Origin: a virus
Virus record (IMG/VR): IMGVR_UViG_3300020195_000933
Coordinates: 1-22,028 of that record
Length of the DNA: 22,028 bases
Direction: 5' to 3' (one strand)
Shown: piece by piece, positions 2,523 through 15,866 of the stretch
Position numbering within the stretch: position 1 is the first letter of the stretch
Layout: every line of letters begins with the position of its first letter
Notes under the pieces: generated by a model
Databases searched by the model: none
What the model was told of the DNA's origin: nothing
Seen by the model: only the letters and a program-made list of their open reading frames with translations
Made by a program: the position numbers and the translations under genes

Positions 2523-2914
2523 AGCGGCCTCCGCTCGAGCGCCAGAACCATCCGGCCTCGAACTGCTACGCCGGTTCCCGGCGTGGTTTTGGCGAGTCGC
2601 AGCACGTCGTTCTCCGAGACCACGGATGCCGCGCCCGCCGGAGTGGTGAGCACCTCTGGCGCGCCCGCGACGCTGTTCGTCGCTGCGTACGAACGGCTCG
2701 CGATGGTCTGGGCCTGGGTCTCGTTTGTCAGTGTCAGAACGGCGTAGTTCGTGCCGTCCGCCGTTACGGCATCGTCCGGGAGCCAGACGACCTTGGTGAT
2801 CTGCCACTTGCCCGGCAGGAGGAATGAATTCTGATAGTTGCGGTCGGTGTTCGCCGTCTCTGCCGCAGTGTCGGTCGCAATCTCGAACTGCGCGTGCTCG
2901 TTGTGGACTGCCAT
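2519..2914 (-). CDS. Putative capsid decoration or head-associated protein (131 aa)
   Basis: It starts at an ATG with a strong Shine-Dalgarno (AGGAGGCCCGG before ATG), the best ribosome site in this block, which suggests a highly made virion protein. It sits directly after the major capsid gene, the usual place of a decoration or head-fibre protein. The 131-aa sequence is beta-rich and hydrophilic: 'YQNSFLLPGKWQITKVVWLP', then 'TNYAVLTLTNETQAQTIASR', and a C-terminal 'GVAVRGRMVLALERR'. I do not recognise a named family. It is separated from the capsid gene by an 80-base gap with a stable stem-loop. Decoration is inferred from position, ribosome site strength and beta-rich pattern. Confidence 0.6.
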   Translation of the reverse strand: MAVHNEHAQFEIATDTAAETANTDRNYQNSFLLPGKWQITKVVWLPDDAVTADGTNYAVLTLTNETQAQTIASRSYAATNSVAGAPEVLTTPAGAASVVSENDVLRLAKTTPGTGVAVRGRMVLALERRPL

Positions 2915-2950
2915 CCGGGCCTCCTGGGCACGTGGCCCTTTGCCACCTCG

Positions 2951-2977
2951 GGCCCGCCACCATCACGTGAGCGGGCC
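2951..2977 (-). promoter_or_regulatory. Stem-loop between capsid and decoration-position gene
   Basis: The 7-bp arms GGCCCGC (2951-2957) and GCGGGCC (2971-2977) flank a 13-base loop, and an extra CTC/GAG pairing is possible with one bulged base. No T run follows on the leftward strand, so it is not a classical rho-independent terminator. It may stabilise the capsid message or partly uncouple expression of the next gene. Confidence 0.45.
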
Positions 2978-2994
2978 GAGGACGAACGCTCGAA

Positions 2995-4605
2995 TCAGGC
3001 GATGGGCAGGTTGTACGAGTAGTGCACGTCACGAACGCCGTCGGCAGCGCCCGGCACAGCATCGAGCGACCGGAACGCGGACCGGCCCCGCGCCACCACC
3101 GTCGTGGTGTTGTTGCGGATGTCCACTTCCTGCTCCATCACCAAATTCTTCCTGATCACGTATTCGAAGCGCGAGCGGTCGACGGTGATCAGGCCGGTGG
3201 TCGTCCCGCTCCCGGTGAACAAGCCCGTTGCCGCCAAATCCGCCGTCATCGTCCCGCTGATGATCAGCGGCACCATCCCCGAGAGGAACCCGACCTGACC
3301 CGGCAGGATGCCGCCCGGCGTCCCGCCCACGTCACCGATCTGCCCGGAGAGGATGGAGGCCAGCGCGCCGACCTTCTCCCACGAGGCGAACTCGGCGAAG
3401 TCCAACATCTTCGCCCAGAAGTACTCCCAGGAGGTGATGGCGACGACGTTCGAGGTCCCCATTCCGTTCATCATGTTCGGGACGCCGAGGTTCCCCGCTG
3501 CGGCCCGGAACCCTGCCCAGGTGGCGGCCGCGCCCTGATCGGTCGCACCGTAGGTGGTGACGGCCTCCGCATCCTTCGCCCGAGCTCGGAGCCCGAGACC
3601 GCGCCGCCGGTGGTCGATGGTGGTCCCAAGGCCCGCAGTCCCGCCGAGCATTCCCCGCGGGTCCCACGACGCGATGGCGTCCTGGTGCGTCGCCGCGCTG
3701 TCGGAGTTCATCGCGGTGTCGTCTTCGCACCACCGCCAGCCGTCGACGATGGCGCGCTGGATCTCCGGCAGAACCGCGATGATCGAGTCCTCCTCCCAGT
3801 CCCGATCGAACTGCACGCCCCCGGCCGCGCTGTAGGTCTCGATCGTGACCGATGCGTCCGTCAGGTTGGAAAGCGGGTCGGCTGCGGGGTCATTCGAGGT
3901 CGGGACGCGATGGATGTAAAACCTGACCCTTCCGGCGATCCGCGGGATGGTGATCGATGAGCCATTGATGATCCGGCGCTTGAACAGGCCAACCAAGCCC
4001 GTCGGGATCATCACCTCCCGCTCGATCTCCGGGATGGTCACGTCCGGTGCCCAGCTGGCCCCAATGCCGGAGGAGTCCGCGAGGATCTTCTCCACCTGCG
4101 GTCCCATCGCGCGGGCCGCCTCCATCACGTCCGAGTCCAGCTGCGGCGTGAACTTCCGACGCACCATCGAGGCCCGCGCGACGCTCCGGCGGGTGACTGC
4201 TCGCTGGAGCGCGAGCTGCGCCGTGGTTCGCGGCTTCGGGTCGTCGATGAGGCCCGGGACCCAGACCTTGCAGACGGAGCCGTCGGGCCCGAGGTGGTCG
4301 ACCGTGTGGCCGCGGAGGCGGAGCGCGCCGTCCGGGCTCACCCGGTAGTTGTCCCGGTCCTGCGCAGGGGGAGCGGAGCGCGAGAAGTACACATCCAGGT
4401 CCCGCTCGGTTCCAGCGCTCGCCGCCCGATCGACCGAGGCCCGCATCTGGGCGTCCTGGGCCTGCTGGATGGCGAGCATCGCGGTCTTGAGCGTACCGAT
4501 CGCCCCGCCGATGTCGGCGAGCTGACCGCCCTGTTCGTCCCGGGCCTTGCGGAGGTCGGCGATCGTCTTCGCCAGTTCCTGGGCCTTCTCCTCGACTCCG
4601 TTCAT
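2995..4605 (-). CDS. Major capsid protein, HK97 fold, with N-terminal coiled-coil scaffold domain
   Basis: This 536-aa protein builds the icosahedral shell. Residues 1-60 form an Ala/Gln/Lys-rich helical region (EEKAQELAKTIADLRKARDE), as expected for a delta domain acting as built-in scaffold. It is followed by a flexible region near residues 60-100. The central part carries 'VTIPEIEREVMIP' and 'GVQFDRDWEEDSIIAV', which fit the E-loop/P-domain of HK97-fold capsids, and the C-terminal part has 'MTADLAATGLFTGSG' and a closing strand. It is longer than the roughly 385-residue HK97 gp5, suggesting an inserted region or an extended P/A domain. Gene order (protease immediately upstream, ATGA overlap) supports the call strongly. 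Confidence 0.9.
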   Translation of the reverse strand: MNGVEEKAQELAKTIADLRKARDEQGGQLADIGGAIGTLKTAMLAIQQAQDAQMRASVDRAASAGTERDLDVYFSRSAPPAQDRDNYRVSPDGALRLRGHTVDHLGPDGSVCKVWVPGLIDDPKPRTTAQLALQRAVTRRSVARASMVRRKFTPQLDSDVMEAARAMGPQVEKILADSSGIGASWAPDVTIPEIEREVMIPTGLVGLFKRRIINGSSITIPRIAGRVRFYIHRVPTSNDPAADPLSNLTDASVTIETYSAAGGVQFDRDWEEDSIIAVLPEIQRAIVDGWRWCEDDTAMNSDSAATHQDAIASWDPRGMLGGTAGLGTTIDHRRRGLGLRARAKDAEAVTTYGATDQGAAATWAGFRAAAGNLGVPNMMNGMGTSNVVAITSWEYFWAKMLDFAEFASWEKVGALASILSGQIGDVGGTPGGILPGQVGFLSGMVPLIISGTMTADLAATGLFTGSGTTTGLITVDRSRFEYVIRKNLVMEQEVDIRNNTTTVVARGRSAFRSLDAVPGAADGVRDVHYSYNLPIA

Positions 4606-9822: not shown

Positions 9823-10221
9823 GTGAGGGCGATCACCCTCCACCCCGAGTGGGCCGCCGCGGTGGTCCACCTCGGAAAGTGGGTGGAGAACCGGACGTGG
9901 AAGCCCCCGGAGTCCGTGATCGGGCAACGGGTGGCCATCCACGCAGGGAGACGCGTTCGGGACCTCCCCCGGATGGTCCAGGTGGCCCGGTCGGTCGGTC
10001 TGGAGGTCAGCCAGGAGGGTTCTCGGGTCGTGTCCGGAGGGGTCGAGGTCCCGATCGTCCTGTCCTCGATCGTGGCGTGCGTGACCCTCGGGGGGGTGGT
10101 CACCGACGCTCCGAGTGGGTGGGCGGTCCCCGGGTCGTTCCACTGGCTCCTGGACGACATCACTCCGATCGTCCCGGTCCCGATCACCGGTCGACTCGGG
10201 TTGTGGGAGATCCCCGAGTAG
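9823..10221 (+). CDS. ASCH-domain protein
   Basis: The 132-aa product begins MRAITLHPEWAAAV, then 'GKWVENRTWKPP' (residues 18-29) and 'IGQRVAIHAGR' (33-43). This is the characteristic ASCH/PUA-like pattern (G.K..E.R.W followed by G.R.AIHA). A Val-rich beta region (IVLSSIVACVTLGGVV) and a closing strand (GRLGLWEIPE) complete the beta-barrel. ASCH domains bind RNA or modified nucleic acids and are common in phages. The start is GTG at 9823, twelve bases after the preceding stop. The gene converges with the leftward ABC-GNAT gene and overlaps its 3' end by 38 bases. The exact substrate is unknown. Confidence 0.85.
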   Translation: MRAITLHPEWAAAVVHLGKWVENRTWKPPESVIGQRVAIHAGRRVRDLPRMVQVARSVGLEVSQEGSRVVSGGVEVPIVLSSIVACVTLGGVVTDAPSGWAVPGSFHWLLDDITPIVPVPITGRLGLWEIPE

Positions 10222-11326
10222 GGTCCCGGAGCGAGGTCATGGCCCGCTCGAACTCGTCCCGCGTTGCCCGAGGTCCGACATACCGGAACGAGGCGGTGAC
10301 GCGGTTTGCGGACTTTGCAAACCGCCCACGTCGGGTTCGAGCGTCCACGGGGCCCTCTTGCACCCGCGACGGTGCCCGCGTCATCCGCCAGAGCTTCGAA
10401 CGGGCCCGATGCCGCACGAACGCGGGGTTGCTCGAGCAGACGATGTACGGCTTATCGGCCGAGAACAGCCACCCCATCCACTCGGCGAGCGCGTTCCCGA
10501 TTCCCATGCCCTGGTAGTCGGGGAGGCAGACCACCCGGTGCCCCCGCCAGAACGAGACCTGTCCGGGAGCGACGGTGGCCGCGCCGAACGCGACCGGGAC
10601 CCCATCCCACATCGCGAGGAAGCACCGCGCGGGCTGGTGGATGTCGCTGTTCAGGTAGTGGTGCTGCTTGAATAGCTGCCACGCCTGACGATGGACCGGG
10701 ACAATGTCGAGGTTAACCCTAGGTCGCTGTTGAACCTCCCTCCAGCGGAACAGGGACTCGTGCGGCTCGCAGATCCAGTCCGGCTGGAGCCACTCGAGCA
10801 CGTCGTAGTGGCATCCGACGCCGACGAACCGCCGGCCGCCGCGACGAACGGCCTTGCTCACCGCTGCGCACGCCGCTCGAGCAACCTGCCGGTCCACGAC
10901 CGACGTGAACTCGTCGATCACGACCAGGTCCTCGGCCTCGGCGAGCGCGCGCGCCATCGTCGCTCGGAACTTCTCACCGGTTGAGAGCACCTGGAACGGC
11001 CGGAGCCAGCTCGGCGGCGAGCTGAAGCCGACGGCGGAGAGCCACCCGGTCACGTCCTTGATCCCGAGCTCGGGCCCGAACCCGTCGAGCACCGATCGGT
11101 CCGCGGGCCAGACGAGCTCGTCGACGATGTGCTCCCCGAACAGCTCGCGAGCGATCGTGGACTTCCCCGCACCCGACGGACCGACGATCAGCCCGATCTG
11201 CCACTCCCGATCCTCGAGCGGGAGATCGAGCGACCACCGGACCTCGGCCGTCGCCGCGGCCGGCAGCTCGAACATGGACTCGGCCTGCATCACGCGCGGC
11301 GTGCGCGCGACGACCGACGACCTCAC
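10184..11326 (-). CDS. ABC-type ATPase fused to a GNAT acetyltransferase-like domain
   Basis: The 380-aa protein has two parts. Residues about 20-195 are a soluble ABC ATPase: Walker A GPSGAGKS (49-56), signature LSTGEK (114-119), Walker B with catalytic Glu in VVIDE (135-139) and a switch His in 'GVGCHYDV'. There is no membrane domain. Residues about 205-380 look like a GNAT fold: 'QLFKQHHYLN', 'GVPVAFGAATV', then the acyl-CoA-binding turn in 'PDYQGMGIGNALAEW' (271-277). This matches the ATPase-acetyltransferase fusion family COG2401. The GNAT half also recalls Mu Mom-type DNA-modifying proteins, though that link is inference. The GTG start at 11326 overlaps the ParB-like stop (GTGA); ATG 11290 is an alternative. 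Confidence 0.85.
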   Translation of the reverse strand: MRSSVVARTPRVMQAESMFELPAAATAEVRWSLDLPLEDREWQIGLIVGPSGAGKSTIARELFGEHIVDELVWPADRSVLDGFGPELGIKDVTGWLSAVGFSSPPSWLRPFQVLSTGEKFRATMARALAEAEDLVVIDEFTSVVDRQVARAACAAVSKAVRRGGRRFVGVGCHYDVLEWLQPDWICEPHESLFRWREVQQRPRVNLDIVPVHRQAWQLFKQHHYLNSDIHQPARCFLAMWDGVPVAFGAATVAPGQVSFWRGHRVVCLPDYQGMGIGNALAEWMGWLFSADKPYIVCSSNPAFVRHRARSKLWRMTRAPSRVQEGPVDARTRRGRFAKSANRVTASFRYVGPRATRDEFERAMTSLRDPTRGSPTTRVDR

Positions 11327-12069
11327 GCAATCAATGCGCGGCACGCGATCCCCTCCCGCTCGAGCAATCGAAGGATCTCGCCCTGGTGCTGTTCGTCGGT
11401 GCACTCGATGAGCACCTGGTACAGAGCGTCGTCGAGCTCGTCGGACTGGTCCCACGACTCCGCCTCCGACTCGGGCTCCACGAGCCTCTGGAGCTCGGCC
11501 TCCGACCACCCCAGCGTCGTGATGTCCCGGTCCTCCGCTTGGAGCTGGCGGAGCACGTCCCCGAGGCCGTCGGACCACTCCGCGAGCTCGCCCACCCTGT
11601 TGTCCGCGAGCGCGAGCATGTGGGCGTCGGCGGGGTCCAAGTCCATGAACCGCACGGGCACCCGGTCGAGCTTGAGCCGCTTCGCCGCCATGTACCTGGT
11701 GTGGCCGGCGATGATCTCGCCGTCGGCCGCGCGGGCGATGATCGGCGAGGCGAAGCCGAACCGGCGGATGGAGCGGGCCACCTCCTCCACCGCCGCGGCG
11801 TTCTGCCTTGGGTTGCCGGGCCACGGCCGCAGCCGGCCGATCGGCACCCAGCTGGCGGCGGCGGCCTCTTCGGCCAGCCGCGGCGGTGCAGCCGTGCCGG
11901 CCGTGCCGGCCGCCGCATTGCCGGCCGGCGCCGCTGCGGGCTGCCGTTTTCTGCCGGCCGGCCGCCGCTTCTCCACGTCCTGGCCATGTTCCGGTGGTCC
12001 CATGGTGTCAAGCCCCTGCACCAAAAAAATTTTGCCGGCACCCTCAGAGAGAGAGAGCCGGACTACCAT
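11323..12069 (-). CDS. ParB/Srx-like N-terminal domain protein
   Basis: A low-complexity Ala/Pro/Lys/Arg-rich N-terminus (to about residue 70) precedes a ParB-fold domain. The domain opens with 'VPIGRLRPWPGNPRQN' and runs through 'SIRRFGFASPIIA', the key 'GEIIAGHTRYMAAKRL' (117-132) and 'MLALADNRVGELAEW' (151-165). The last element is typical of ParB-like domains linked to DNA methyltransferases in phages rather than of chromosome-partition ParB, and no partition HTH follows. The C-terminal region is acidic and helical. It may act on DNA, possibly CTP-dependent, with the ABC-GNAT protein encoded next (GTGA overlap). ATG 12069 has GAGGT upstream; ATG 12003 is an alternative start that avoids a simple-repeat region. 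Confidence 0.85.
   Translation of the reverse strand: MVVRLSLSEGAGKIFLVQGLDTMGPPEHGQDVEKRRPAGRKRQPAAAPAGNAAAGTAGTAAPPRLAEEAAAASWVPIGRLRPWPGNPRQNAAAVEEVARSIRRFGFASPIIARAADGEIIAGHTRYMAAKRLKLDRVPVRFMDLDPADAHMLALADNRVGELAEWSDGLGDVLRQLQAEDRDITTLGWSEAELQRLVEPESEAESWDQSDELDDALYQVLIECTDEQHQGEILRLLEREGIACRALIA
12023..12057. repeat. Simple-sequence tracts at the ParB-like 5' end
   Basis: A7T4 (12023-12033) and (AG)6 (12046-12057) lie within 50 bases of the ATG at 12069 and upstream of the alternative ATG at 12003. In leftward reading they are a T7 and a (CT)6 run inside the first 16 codons. They could allow slippage, or mark a non-coding leader if translation starts at 12003. Confidence 0.55.
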
Positions 12070-14272: not shown

Positions 14273-15225
14273 ATGTCTCCTCCGTCCTCACGTTTCCTGA
14301 ACTCGCGGTCCATGAGAGCTTCCAGCACGCCGTCCCCGGCGTGGCCATGGCGGTGGCGGTGGCCGTTGGTCTTCGGCGGAGCTCGGGCGGTGCCCGAGGG
14401 TCGATCGGCGTGGATCCGCCACAGTTCGGCGTACTCGTCGAGGTGCCGGAGAACGGTTTCGACGGTCAACCCGTCGTATTCCCGGAGCTTCACCGCCCGG
14501 TCGATCTGCGACTCCCCGGCGAACCGCAGCGCGTCGAGCACCTTCTCTTGGTCCTTCCGGCATTCTCGATAGAGACGCTGCCCGACCTTGCTCGACCGTT
14601 CGGGGCCTTTGCTCGGTCGGCGGCCAATCGCTCGGTGGACGATCTCGCCGAAGTAGGTCGCCGCCTGCAGATAGGCCATGGAGGCCATGTCGAACACCGT
14701 CGGGTGCTCTTCCGTGAGCACCGGAAGGTCGTCCTCGGGCTCCAACCCCACCGGGGCGCCCGGCGGCCCGACCGACAGTTGTTCCTTGTCCCCGGGTGAG
14801 GGTGAGGGTGAGGGTGAGGGTGGATCAACGCGCGTGTGGTGCGCGCTGGGTCCGGCCTGGTGCAGGCTGGGTCCGGCTGGGTCCGGCGGGCGATATTCCC
14901 CAGGTTCGCCCGTGTCGGGTTGGGTCCGGCTGGGTCCGGCTGGGTCCGGGCTGGTGCACGCTGGGTCCGGAGGCCTCGGCGAGGCGAGTTGCGGAATCTC
15001 CCCGCGCTTCGGATCCCACCATCTCGCCGGGGTTCTCAACAGCCCTCGGACCCGACCGTCGGACCACCCCCAGCGGTCGGCGAGCACCCGGCGAGACGGG
15101 ACCTTCCCGTCCTGGTCGACCCACCAGCGCAGGTCGATGCACGCCGTCTCGTCCTTCCACGGACGGGGCAGGGCCTCGGCGGTGGCTCGCCACCAGTCCG
15201 CCTGCACCGGGACCCACCCGCTCAC
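14251..15225 (-). CDS. Replication initiator / replisome-organiser-like protein
   Basis: The 324-aa protein has an N-terminal winged-HTH-like region (residues about 8-75), where 'VPSRRVLADRWGWSDGRVRG' is the expected recognition element of phage replisome organisers. A Pro/Ser/Asp-rich linker (about 82-150) contains repeated PDPAGPS and (PS)n peptides. A helical C-terminal domain (about 170-275) includes 'YLQAATYFGEIVHRAIG' and 'VETVLRHLDEYAELWR'. The linker DNA carries seven TGGGTCCGG copies and a G-run array, so the origin may lie inside the gene, as in lambda O. The GTG start at 15225 overlaps the methyltransferase stop (GTGA), ruling out the longer frame. Helicase-loader and RusA genes follow. 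Confidence 0.7.
   Translation of the reverse strand: MSGWVPVQADWWRATAEALPRPWKDETACIDLRWWVDQDGKVPSRRVLADRWGWSDGRVRGLLRTPARWWDPKRGEIPQLASPRPPDPACTSPDPAGPSRTQPDTGEPGEYRPPDPAGPSLHQAGPSAHHTRVDPPSPSPSPSPGDKEQLSVGPPGAPVGLEPEDDLPVLTEEHPTVFDMASMAYLQAATYFGEIVHRAIGRRPSKGPERSSKVGQRLYRECRKDQEKVLDALRFAGESQIDRAVKLREYDGLTVETVLRHLDEYAELWRIHADRPSGTARAPPKTNGHRHRHGHAGDGVLEALMDREFRKREDGGDIWQADPE
14794..14823 (+). repeat. GGGTGA tandem repeat, G-quadruplex-type
   Basis: Four GGGTGA units (14794-14817) plus GGGTGG give six consecutive GGG runs with three-base TGA loops on the rightward strand. The leftward strand encodes the Pro-Ser part of the linker. The spacing is ideal for a G-quadruplex. Confidence 0.8.
14847..14970. 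repeat. Seven phased TGGGTCCGG repeats, candidate origin iterons
   Basis: Exact TGGGTCCGG copies begin at 14847, 14868, 14878, 14921, 14931, 14941 and 14962. Spacings are 21, 10, 43, 10, 10 and 21, close to whole turns of DNA. They encode the PDPAGPS-type peptide repeats, but the helical phasing and location inside the initiator-like gene fit initiator-binding iterons. Confidence 0.6.
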
Positions 15226-15866
15226 CGCCACCCCAACCACCGGAGGCGGGTGTCCCGCTCTCCCCGGATCCAGAGCACCAGGATGGAGTCCGCGCTGTCG
15301 CTCGCCCTACGTTGGCCCGGACCGCCCCATTTCGGCCGAGGCACCAGGACCCAGATCGTGGCGGGCGGGTGCTTCTCCCACCACGGCAGCCGGTCCAGGG
15401 ATCCGAGCACGGTCCCGCGGAGCAGGTACGCCACCACAGGCGCGAGCTCGAGGGACCGGTCGAGCCACCCGACCAGGTCCCCACCGTACGGCGGGTTGCC
15501 GAGGATCAGGTCGACCGGATCGGGATCGAACGCTCGGAAGTCCGCAACGCCAGCCAGGTCGGCATGGGCCAGACCGGGGGCGTCGGGGTCAACGTCGATA
15601 CCGAACCGTTCGGCCCACGGCCAGACCTCGGCGGCCGCCTCCAGCCACGCGCCTCCTCCGACCGACGGCTCGAGCAGCCGCCTGGGCCACCGCGGGAGCT
15701 GCCACCGCGCCTCGGCGTCGATCTCCGCCACGCAGGCGCGGGCGACCTCGAGCGGGGTCCAGTACCCGTCGAGCGAGTCACGCTCCCCCGGTCCGAGGGC
15801 GCGGGGACCCTCCCCGAGGACGAGCTGACCGTCCCGGATCGCGCTGTGGTGGCGAGGCCCGGTCAC
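15222..15866 (-). CDS. Orphan N6-adenine DNA methyltransferase
   Basis: This 214-aa enzyme should transfer a methyl group from SAM to adenine N6. Motif X is seen as 'GYWTPLEVA' (34-42), motif I (SAM-binding) as 'LLEPSVGGGAWL' (64-75) and the catalytic motif IV as 'ILGNPPYGG' (121-129). The order X-I-IV is that of gamma-class N6-adenine enzymes. The protein is short and lacks an evident target-recognition domain, and no restriction enzyme is nearby, so it is an orphan phage methylase, perhaps protecting DNA or marking origins. The GTG start overlaps the preceding stop (GTGA), and GAGGCG lies upstream. Confidence 0.88.
   Translation of the reverse strand: MTGPRHHSAIRDGQLVLGEGPRALGPGERDSLDGYWTPLEVARACVAEIDAEARWQLPRWPRRLLEPSVGGGAWLEAAAEVWPWAERFGIDVDPDAPGLAHADLAGVADFRAFDPDPVDLILGNPPYGGDLVGWLDRSLELAPVVAYLLRGTVLGSLDRLPWWEKHPPATIWVLVPRPKWGGPGQRRASDSADSILVLWIRGERDTRLRWLGWR

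Follow-up and report, generated by a model that had tools for sequence, protein, structure and literature searches.

The window analysed here, a 22,028-nt stretch covering positions 1 to 22,028 of the IMG/VR virus record IMGVR_UViG_3300020195_000933, carries two coupled genes, one encoding a ParB-like protein and the other a fusion of an ABC ATPase with a GNAT domain (hereafter ABC-GNAT), which probably form a protective phage DNA acyl-modification system made of two, rarely one or three, polypeptides. Judging from their sequences and relatives, the pair most likely adds an acyl group to bases of the phage DNA. With a GC content of 70%, the window includes among its phage genes a RusA-like resolvase and a RecE-like recombinase (Pfam, PHROG), as well as minus-strand terminase and portal genes, which are recognised by where they lie and by resemblance to terminases and portals already annotated. 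The features of interest are as follows.

11323-12069, minus strand: ParB gene (248 aa; Pfam ParB_N, E 1.1e-9; PHROG ParB, E 3.6e-38)
11470..11856, minus strand: ParB N-terminal domain, about residues 72-200 (Pfam ParB_N, E 1.1e-9; structure model)
11326..11433, minus strand: ParB C-terminal tail, residues 213-248, a predicted docking module (profile distribution; structure model)
11323..11326, minus strand: GTGA overlap of the ParB stop and the ABC-GNAT start (read directly from the sequence)
10184-11326, minus strand: ABC-GNAT gene (380 aa; GTG start at 11326, stop at 10184)
10739..11326, minus strand: ABC ATPase half, residues 1-196 (Pfam ABC_tran; family-invariant motifs)
10187..10738, minus strand: GNAT half, residues 197-380 (Pfam Acetyltransf_1; AlphaFold2 model with pLDDT 86, GNAT fold by Foldseek)
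9823..10221, plus strand: ASCH-like (PUA-superfamily) gene (phrog_3193, E 1e-25; ASCH-type motif by alignment)
15222-15866, minus strand: short adenine-type methylase-like protein (phrog_799)

A preliminary description of this DNA, made from its letters alone, had recognised a ParB gene followed through a GTGA overlap by a soluble ABC ATPase fused to a GNAT domain. Both genes and the overlap, which is predicted to couple their translation, can be read in the sequence, in agreement with Pfam and PHROG. The listed open reading frame 10184-11824 begins too early for the ABC-GNAT gene, whose true start is the GTG at 11326. By its domain and modelled fold, the window ParB is assigned to the ParB/Srx superfamily; the best Foldseek matches of its model are nucleotide-clamp ParBs of the Noc/ParB/KorB type (E 2.9e-7), and its second-best PHROG match is phrog_498, a family of ParB-bearing DNA methyltransferases. 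The ABC-GNAT protein is matched by Pfam ABC_tran (E 3.6e-8) and Acetyltransf_1 (E 8.9e-7), and over its full length (residues 9-355, E 1.3e-103) by phrog_11143, whose function is unknown. In the family, of which 36 nonredundant members were aligned, the Walker A, LSxG signature, Walker B DE (with the catalytic E) and H-loop of the ABC half are near-invariant, as is the QGxGxG motif of the GNAT half, in which HY (223-224), RxV (264-266), PDxQGxG (269-275), P301 and W313 are invariant; the catalytic motifs of both halves are intact. Pfam matched no membrane-domain family in this soluble protein, and the genes that recur beside it encode ParB, terminase and head proteins, so that an identity as ABC transporter was rejected. 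Misleading annotations are corrected by this assignment: among L086, L089 and L093, the ABC half had been labelled "iron siderophore transporter", the ABC-GNAT "hemin importer" and, in Enterococcus phage 9184, the GNAT half "DNA polymerase".

Homologues are broadly distributed. Searches by tblastn with the ABC-GNAT protein retrieved 55 phage records (39 at ≥80% coverage), including Gordonia, Arthrobacter, Streptococcus, Lactococcus, Oenococcus, Leptospira, Aeromonas, Vibrio and Porphyromonas phages. The matches further included at least 227 stretches in IMG/VR and at least 296 in bacterial genomes; the best of the bacterial ones were mostly from Planctomycetota, with others from Nonomuraea, Streptomyces and Proteobacteria. 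Many of the bacterial loci appear prophage-like, because terminase, portal or major head genes lie nearby. On Planctomycetota chromosomes (L129-L208), ParB and ABC-GNAT genes are frequent and adjoin terminase, portal or head genes, which suggests a widespread prophage or gene-transfer-agent-like element.

Gene neighbourhoods were compared at 175 viral, phage and bacterial loci, the last mostly from prophage-like regions of Planctomycetes. At almost every viral or genome locus a ParB gene lies directly upstream of ABC-GNAT, and after collapsing at 70% identity, a ParB bearing a characteristic C-terminal tail (see below) adjoins ABC-GNAT in 81 of the 90 informative families, an adjacency far beyond chance. 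The survey of co-occurrence that had been proposed for the two genes thus finds a strongly conserved neighbourhood rather than none. Six families are devoid of ParB and tail altogether (T4-like Aeromonas and Vibrio phages, P12024S, pT24, Enterococcus 9184 and Pan216), and ABC-GNAT therefore does not always need ParB, a point against the proposed system.

Two further explanations were weighed. A terminase large subunit is encoded within 3 kb downstream of ABC-GNAT in at least 56 of 80 viral and 37 of 64 genome loci, as might be expected of a packaging or genome-end factor, with ParB as the marker of a site close to the terminase genes and the ABC ATPase as a partner of terminase. Yet many members, such as those of EastWest, the T4-like phages and P12024S, have no annotated terminase nearby, the GNAT active site is conserved although packaging has no need of it, and a methylase gene holds the same pre-terminase position in L227 (see below), which makes this role very unlikely. 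We consider it highly improbable that the system is a toxin or a defence against competing phages or the host, in which a ParB nuclease or NTPase and ABC-GNAT would target incoming DNA or nucleotides. Nucleases do occur in the ParB superfamily (cited in PMC10853773), and PADLOC returned weak matches to MADS mad3/mad8, but these are confined to the ABC region and look like generic ABC similarity; moreover, no recurrent nuclease partner was seen beside ABC-GNAT in the locus neighbourhoods, and the gene behaves as a phage gene at a standard position across phyla.

Support for a dedicated partnership comes from the ParB C-terminus. When the ParBs found upstream of ABC-GNAT are aligned, their domains are variable and a C-terminal stretch of about 35 residues is conserved, which in the window reads YQVLIECTDEQHQGEILRLLEREGIACRALIA. 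A profile of this tail detects it directly upstream of ABC-GNAT in 159 of the 175 loci, a count obtained partly by construction since the profile was built from the same loci; the informative part is the set of control ParBs gathered with ParB queries, among which the tail is absent in 68 of 70. One of the two tail-positive controls is itself an ABC-GNAT locus. In the other, L289, a tail-bearing ParB (2875-3507) has portal-like genes after it but lacks an ABC-GNAT; the partner seems to have been lost, and this orphan likewise counts against the proposed system. Secondary ParBs of ABC-GNAT loci also have no tail (0 of 9). The remainder of the 175 loci comprises contig edges, four loci of Nonomuraea or a relative with the tail farther upstream, a fusion (L073) and the six without tail. 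In Pseudomonas phage Komp_PAO1_1 (L092 3810-3959), a 49-aa protein that is essentially the tail alone, without a ParB domain, directly precedes ABC-GNAT. In the window ParB model, the tail forms a separate, confidently predicted helix-containing module behind a low-confidence linker. From this distribution, the tail looks like a docking piece for ABC-GNAT.

The number of polypeptides varies. On a 65.6-kb phage contig, L073 joins ParB domain, tail, ABC and GNAT in a single open reading frame of 585 aa, and in streptococcal and oenococcal phages ABC and GNAT are encoded by separate adjoining genes, still downstream of ParB. A deeper branch, represented by an Acinetobacter phage-plasmid and Rhizobium phage RHEph10, has a ParB without tail, a stand-alone ABC and a GNAT one or two genes further on, with other genes between (L218 3312-6029 and L219 1896-5092). 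Their ABCs match the ABC-GNAT profile in a 12-protein set (E 1e-35 and 1e-30), and their GNATs, 38% identical to each other, align HY on HY and SR on HR with ABC-GNAT (hhalign P 1.1e-4). The genes inside these split trios encode a thioredoxin-like protein (Acinetobacter) and a Tad2-like anti-Thoeris protein (Rhizobium phage).

Further indications of function come from the other partners of ParB. In Arthrobacter phage EastWest, the gene order is gp73, ParB, ABC-GNAT, two small genes, HTH and sliding clamp, while Arthrobacter phage Martha has gp68, ParB, a small gene, a Mom-like protein, HTH and sliding clamp. With identities of 65% for gp73/gp68, 55% for ParB, 80% for HTH and 45% for the sliding clamp, the comparison indicates that ABC-GNAT and Mom have been exchanged in the same slot between orthologous genes. 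In phage Appa, ParB is likewise paired with Mom, and the Mom-linked ParBs of Martha and Appa carry a CxxC-bearing C-terminus in place of the tail. Among the relatives closest to the window ParB domain (52-63% identity), many are fused to N6_N4 methylases (Pfam), and one adjoins a C5 methylase; the phrog_498 fusions (ParB_N with N6_N4_Mtase) share the ParB domain type of the window and differ in their effector, a methylase instead of ABC-GNAT. In L227 (934-3347), downstream of a CxxC-ended ParB come a C5 cytosine methylase and then a terminase-like gene; ParB and methylase there hold the pre-terminase place that ParB and ABC-GNAT have elsewhere. Among the 70 control ParBs, 46 have no recognised partner. 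In other phages, ParBs of this type are thus joined to methylases or placed before a C5 methylase or Mom. Given the methylase fusions and neighbours and the Mom exchange, several phage DNA-modification enzymes share ParB as a module, with ABC-GNAT in the enzyme position, and this shared use, together with the slot exchange, supports DNA as the substrate more strongly than any other argument.

The preliminary description had looked to Mu Mom as a model for the GNAT half, and here the comparison went the other way, ordinary GNATs being the best matches by both Foldseek and profile. PF25680 (Mom) gave no match to the GNAT half at E≤10 (control Mu Mom, E 2e-75). Foldseek placed ordinary GNATs first for the GNAT-half model, with spermidine acetyltransferase SpeG at E 1.8e-5 and a TM of about 0.5, and the Mom structure 8bv8 was not among the best 50 matches; in the viral library, the top matches were family members of Enterococcus phage 9184 and Leptospira phage LE4. 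With hhalign, the GNAT half aligned with nine Mom proteins at P 0.003-0.008 (probability 5-10%), the main segment spanning the HY region, and the score of 23.8 compares with at most 17.6 for 60 column-shuffled Mom alignments; a single RimI sequence reached P 2e-5 over the CoA half. Residues H48, Y49 and R101 of Mu Mom are reportedly important at its active site. The GNAT-half HY aligns with or beside the Mom HY at a weak P, and the R was aligned by eye. Direct homology by profile was rejected, the similarity being weak. Because of the missing PF25680 match, the ordinary GNATs found by Foldseek and the weak hhalign result, the GNAT half is classified as not a Mom family member, its predicted fold and CoA-binding half matching ordinary GNATs best; at best it would work like Mom, which it resembles, weakly, only at the HY and R positions. 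ABC-GNAT, by prediction, and Mu Mom with its Mom-like relatives (PF25680; structure 8bv8) are nonetheless both GNAT-superfamily phage DNA modifiers; they can fill the same slot beside an orthologous ParB, and they appear to have in common an HY ahead of the second strand and an R in the motif that follows. In contrast to ABC-GNAT, Mom has no ABC domain and no QGxGxG CoA motif, and the Mom-linked ParBs of Martha and Appa end in the CxxC element, not the tail.

This affinity to ordinary small-molecule or protein GNATs (SpeG, RimI) bears on a third explanation, in which the GNAT acylates a protein where ParB sits, such as host RNA polymerase, a nucleoid protein or a defence protein, with the ABC domain as a switch. 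Phage GNATs such as Rac do acetylate RNA polymerase (PMC7824862). However, ABC-GNAT exchanges its slot with Mom, the other recognised partners of ParB are DNA methyltransferases, and ABC-GNAT often adjoins structural rather than early takeover genes; we therefore regard protein acylation as unlikely.

Two other genes of the window were considered as parts of the putative DNA-modification system. The methylase-like gene lies about 3.2 kb from the ParB/ABC-GNAT pair, with several genes between; no relative was found in any other ABC-GNAT locus, and methylases of the ParB-fused N6/N4 type occur within 3 kb of ABC-GNAT in only 2 of the 175 loci. From the two- or three-part modification system first suggested, the two-part core of ParB and ABC-GNAT is retained, given the conserved pair, the L073 fusion and the Mom exchange, and the methylase is dropped as third component for want of relatives near other ABC-GNAT genes. 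The ASCH-like gene is convergent with ABC-GNAT and overlaps its end by 38 nt; its product has K..ENR and IHAG motifs and no Pfam match. An ASCH gene of this type is found no more than 3 kb away at 18 of 175 ABC-GNAT loci and at 1 of 70 ParB controls, itself an ABC-GNAT locus, in a comparison between sets that differ in flanks and redundancy. ASCH and EVE domains have reportedly been proposed as readers of modified bases. For EVE domains, this proposal is found in PMC7641849. The ASCH-like protein is a possible accessory of ABC-GNAT, perhaps a reader, and we offer this as a lead. RNA cytidine acetyltransferase likewise combines an ATPase with a GNAT domain. An N4-acetylcytidine writer and eraser were nevertheless rejected, that enzyme being a weak match (E 0.43) and the ASCH proteins having no Thr at the relevant position. 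The triad of the YqfB N4-acetylcytidine amidohydrolase is Lys21-Thr24-Glu74, with Thr as nucleophile (PMC6972931), and in the window protein, as in most of its neighbours, Glu takes the place of Thr24 (K..E.R; the YqfB comparison sequence being approximate), so that a YqfB-type hydrolase was discarded.

Base modification by phage ABC ATPase-GNAT proteins had already been predicted in print (Iyer et al. 2013, described in PMC7824862), and as a general claim is not new. These predicted modifiers (phrog_11143) have the domain combination of the window protein, as do, by domain description, COG2401-type ABC ATPase-acetyltransferase proteins, and Tenacibaculum phage pT24, named in PMC7824862, is a direct tblastn match of the window ABC-GNAT. 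The passage of PMC7824862 that deals with the family mentions neither ParB nor a docking tail. In the searchable literature, we found no biochemical test of this prediction, now more than 10 years old, and no description of the ParB tail, of the single-chain fusion, of Mom and ABC-GNAT trading places or of how the family is distributed. Added here are the tail-bearing ParB as a concrete partner and the natural single-chain form.

In the mechanism that we propose, the ParB domain would bind phage DNA, as a CTP-type clamp or as a sequence reader, and its C-terminal tail would recruit the ABC-GNAT protein. Around ATP, two ABC domains could then form a dimer that closes on the DNA or remodels it and that offers a base to the GNAT, which would transfer an acyl group from acyl-CoA to the exocyclic amine of the base, so that the acylated phage DNA may resist host nucleases before packaging. 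As in the preliminary description, we infer that the ATPase powers GNAT action. A more specific version is plausible but held tentatively: an ATP-driven, modular DNA acyltransferase, interchangeable with Mom in evolution and directed by a ParB clamp to which the docking tail links it, that makes an undescribed N-acyl base and has spread among phages and prophages of, at least, Actinomycetota, Planctomycetota, Pseudomonadota, Bacillota and Spirochaetota.

EastWest, with ABC-GNAT, and Martha, with Mom, provide a matched pair of cultured phages for a comparison of DNA bases. Should the DNA-acylation reading be true, the tail would serve as a sequence marker for finding such systems, and ATP-driven, clamp-guided base acylation would represent a new chemistry of phage DNA protection.
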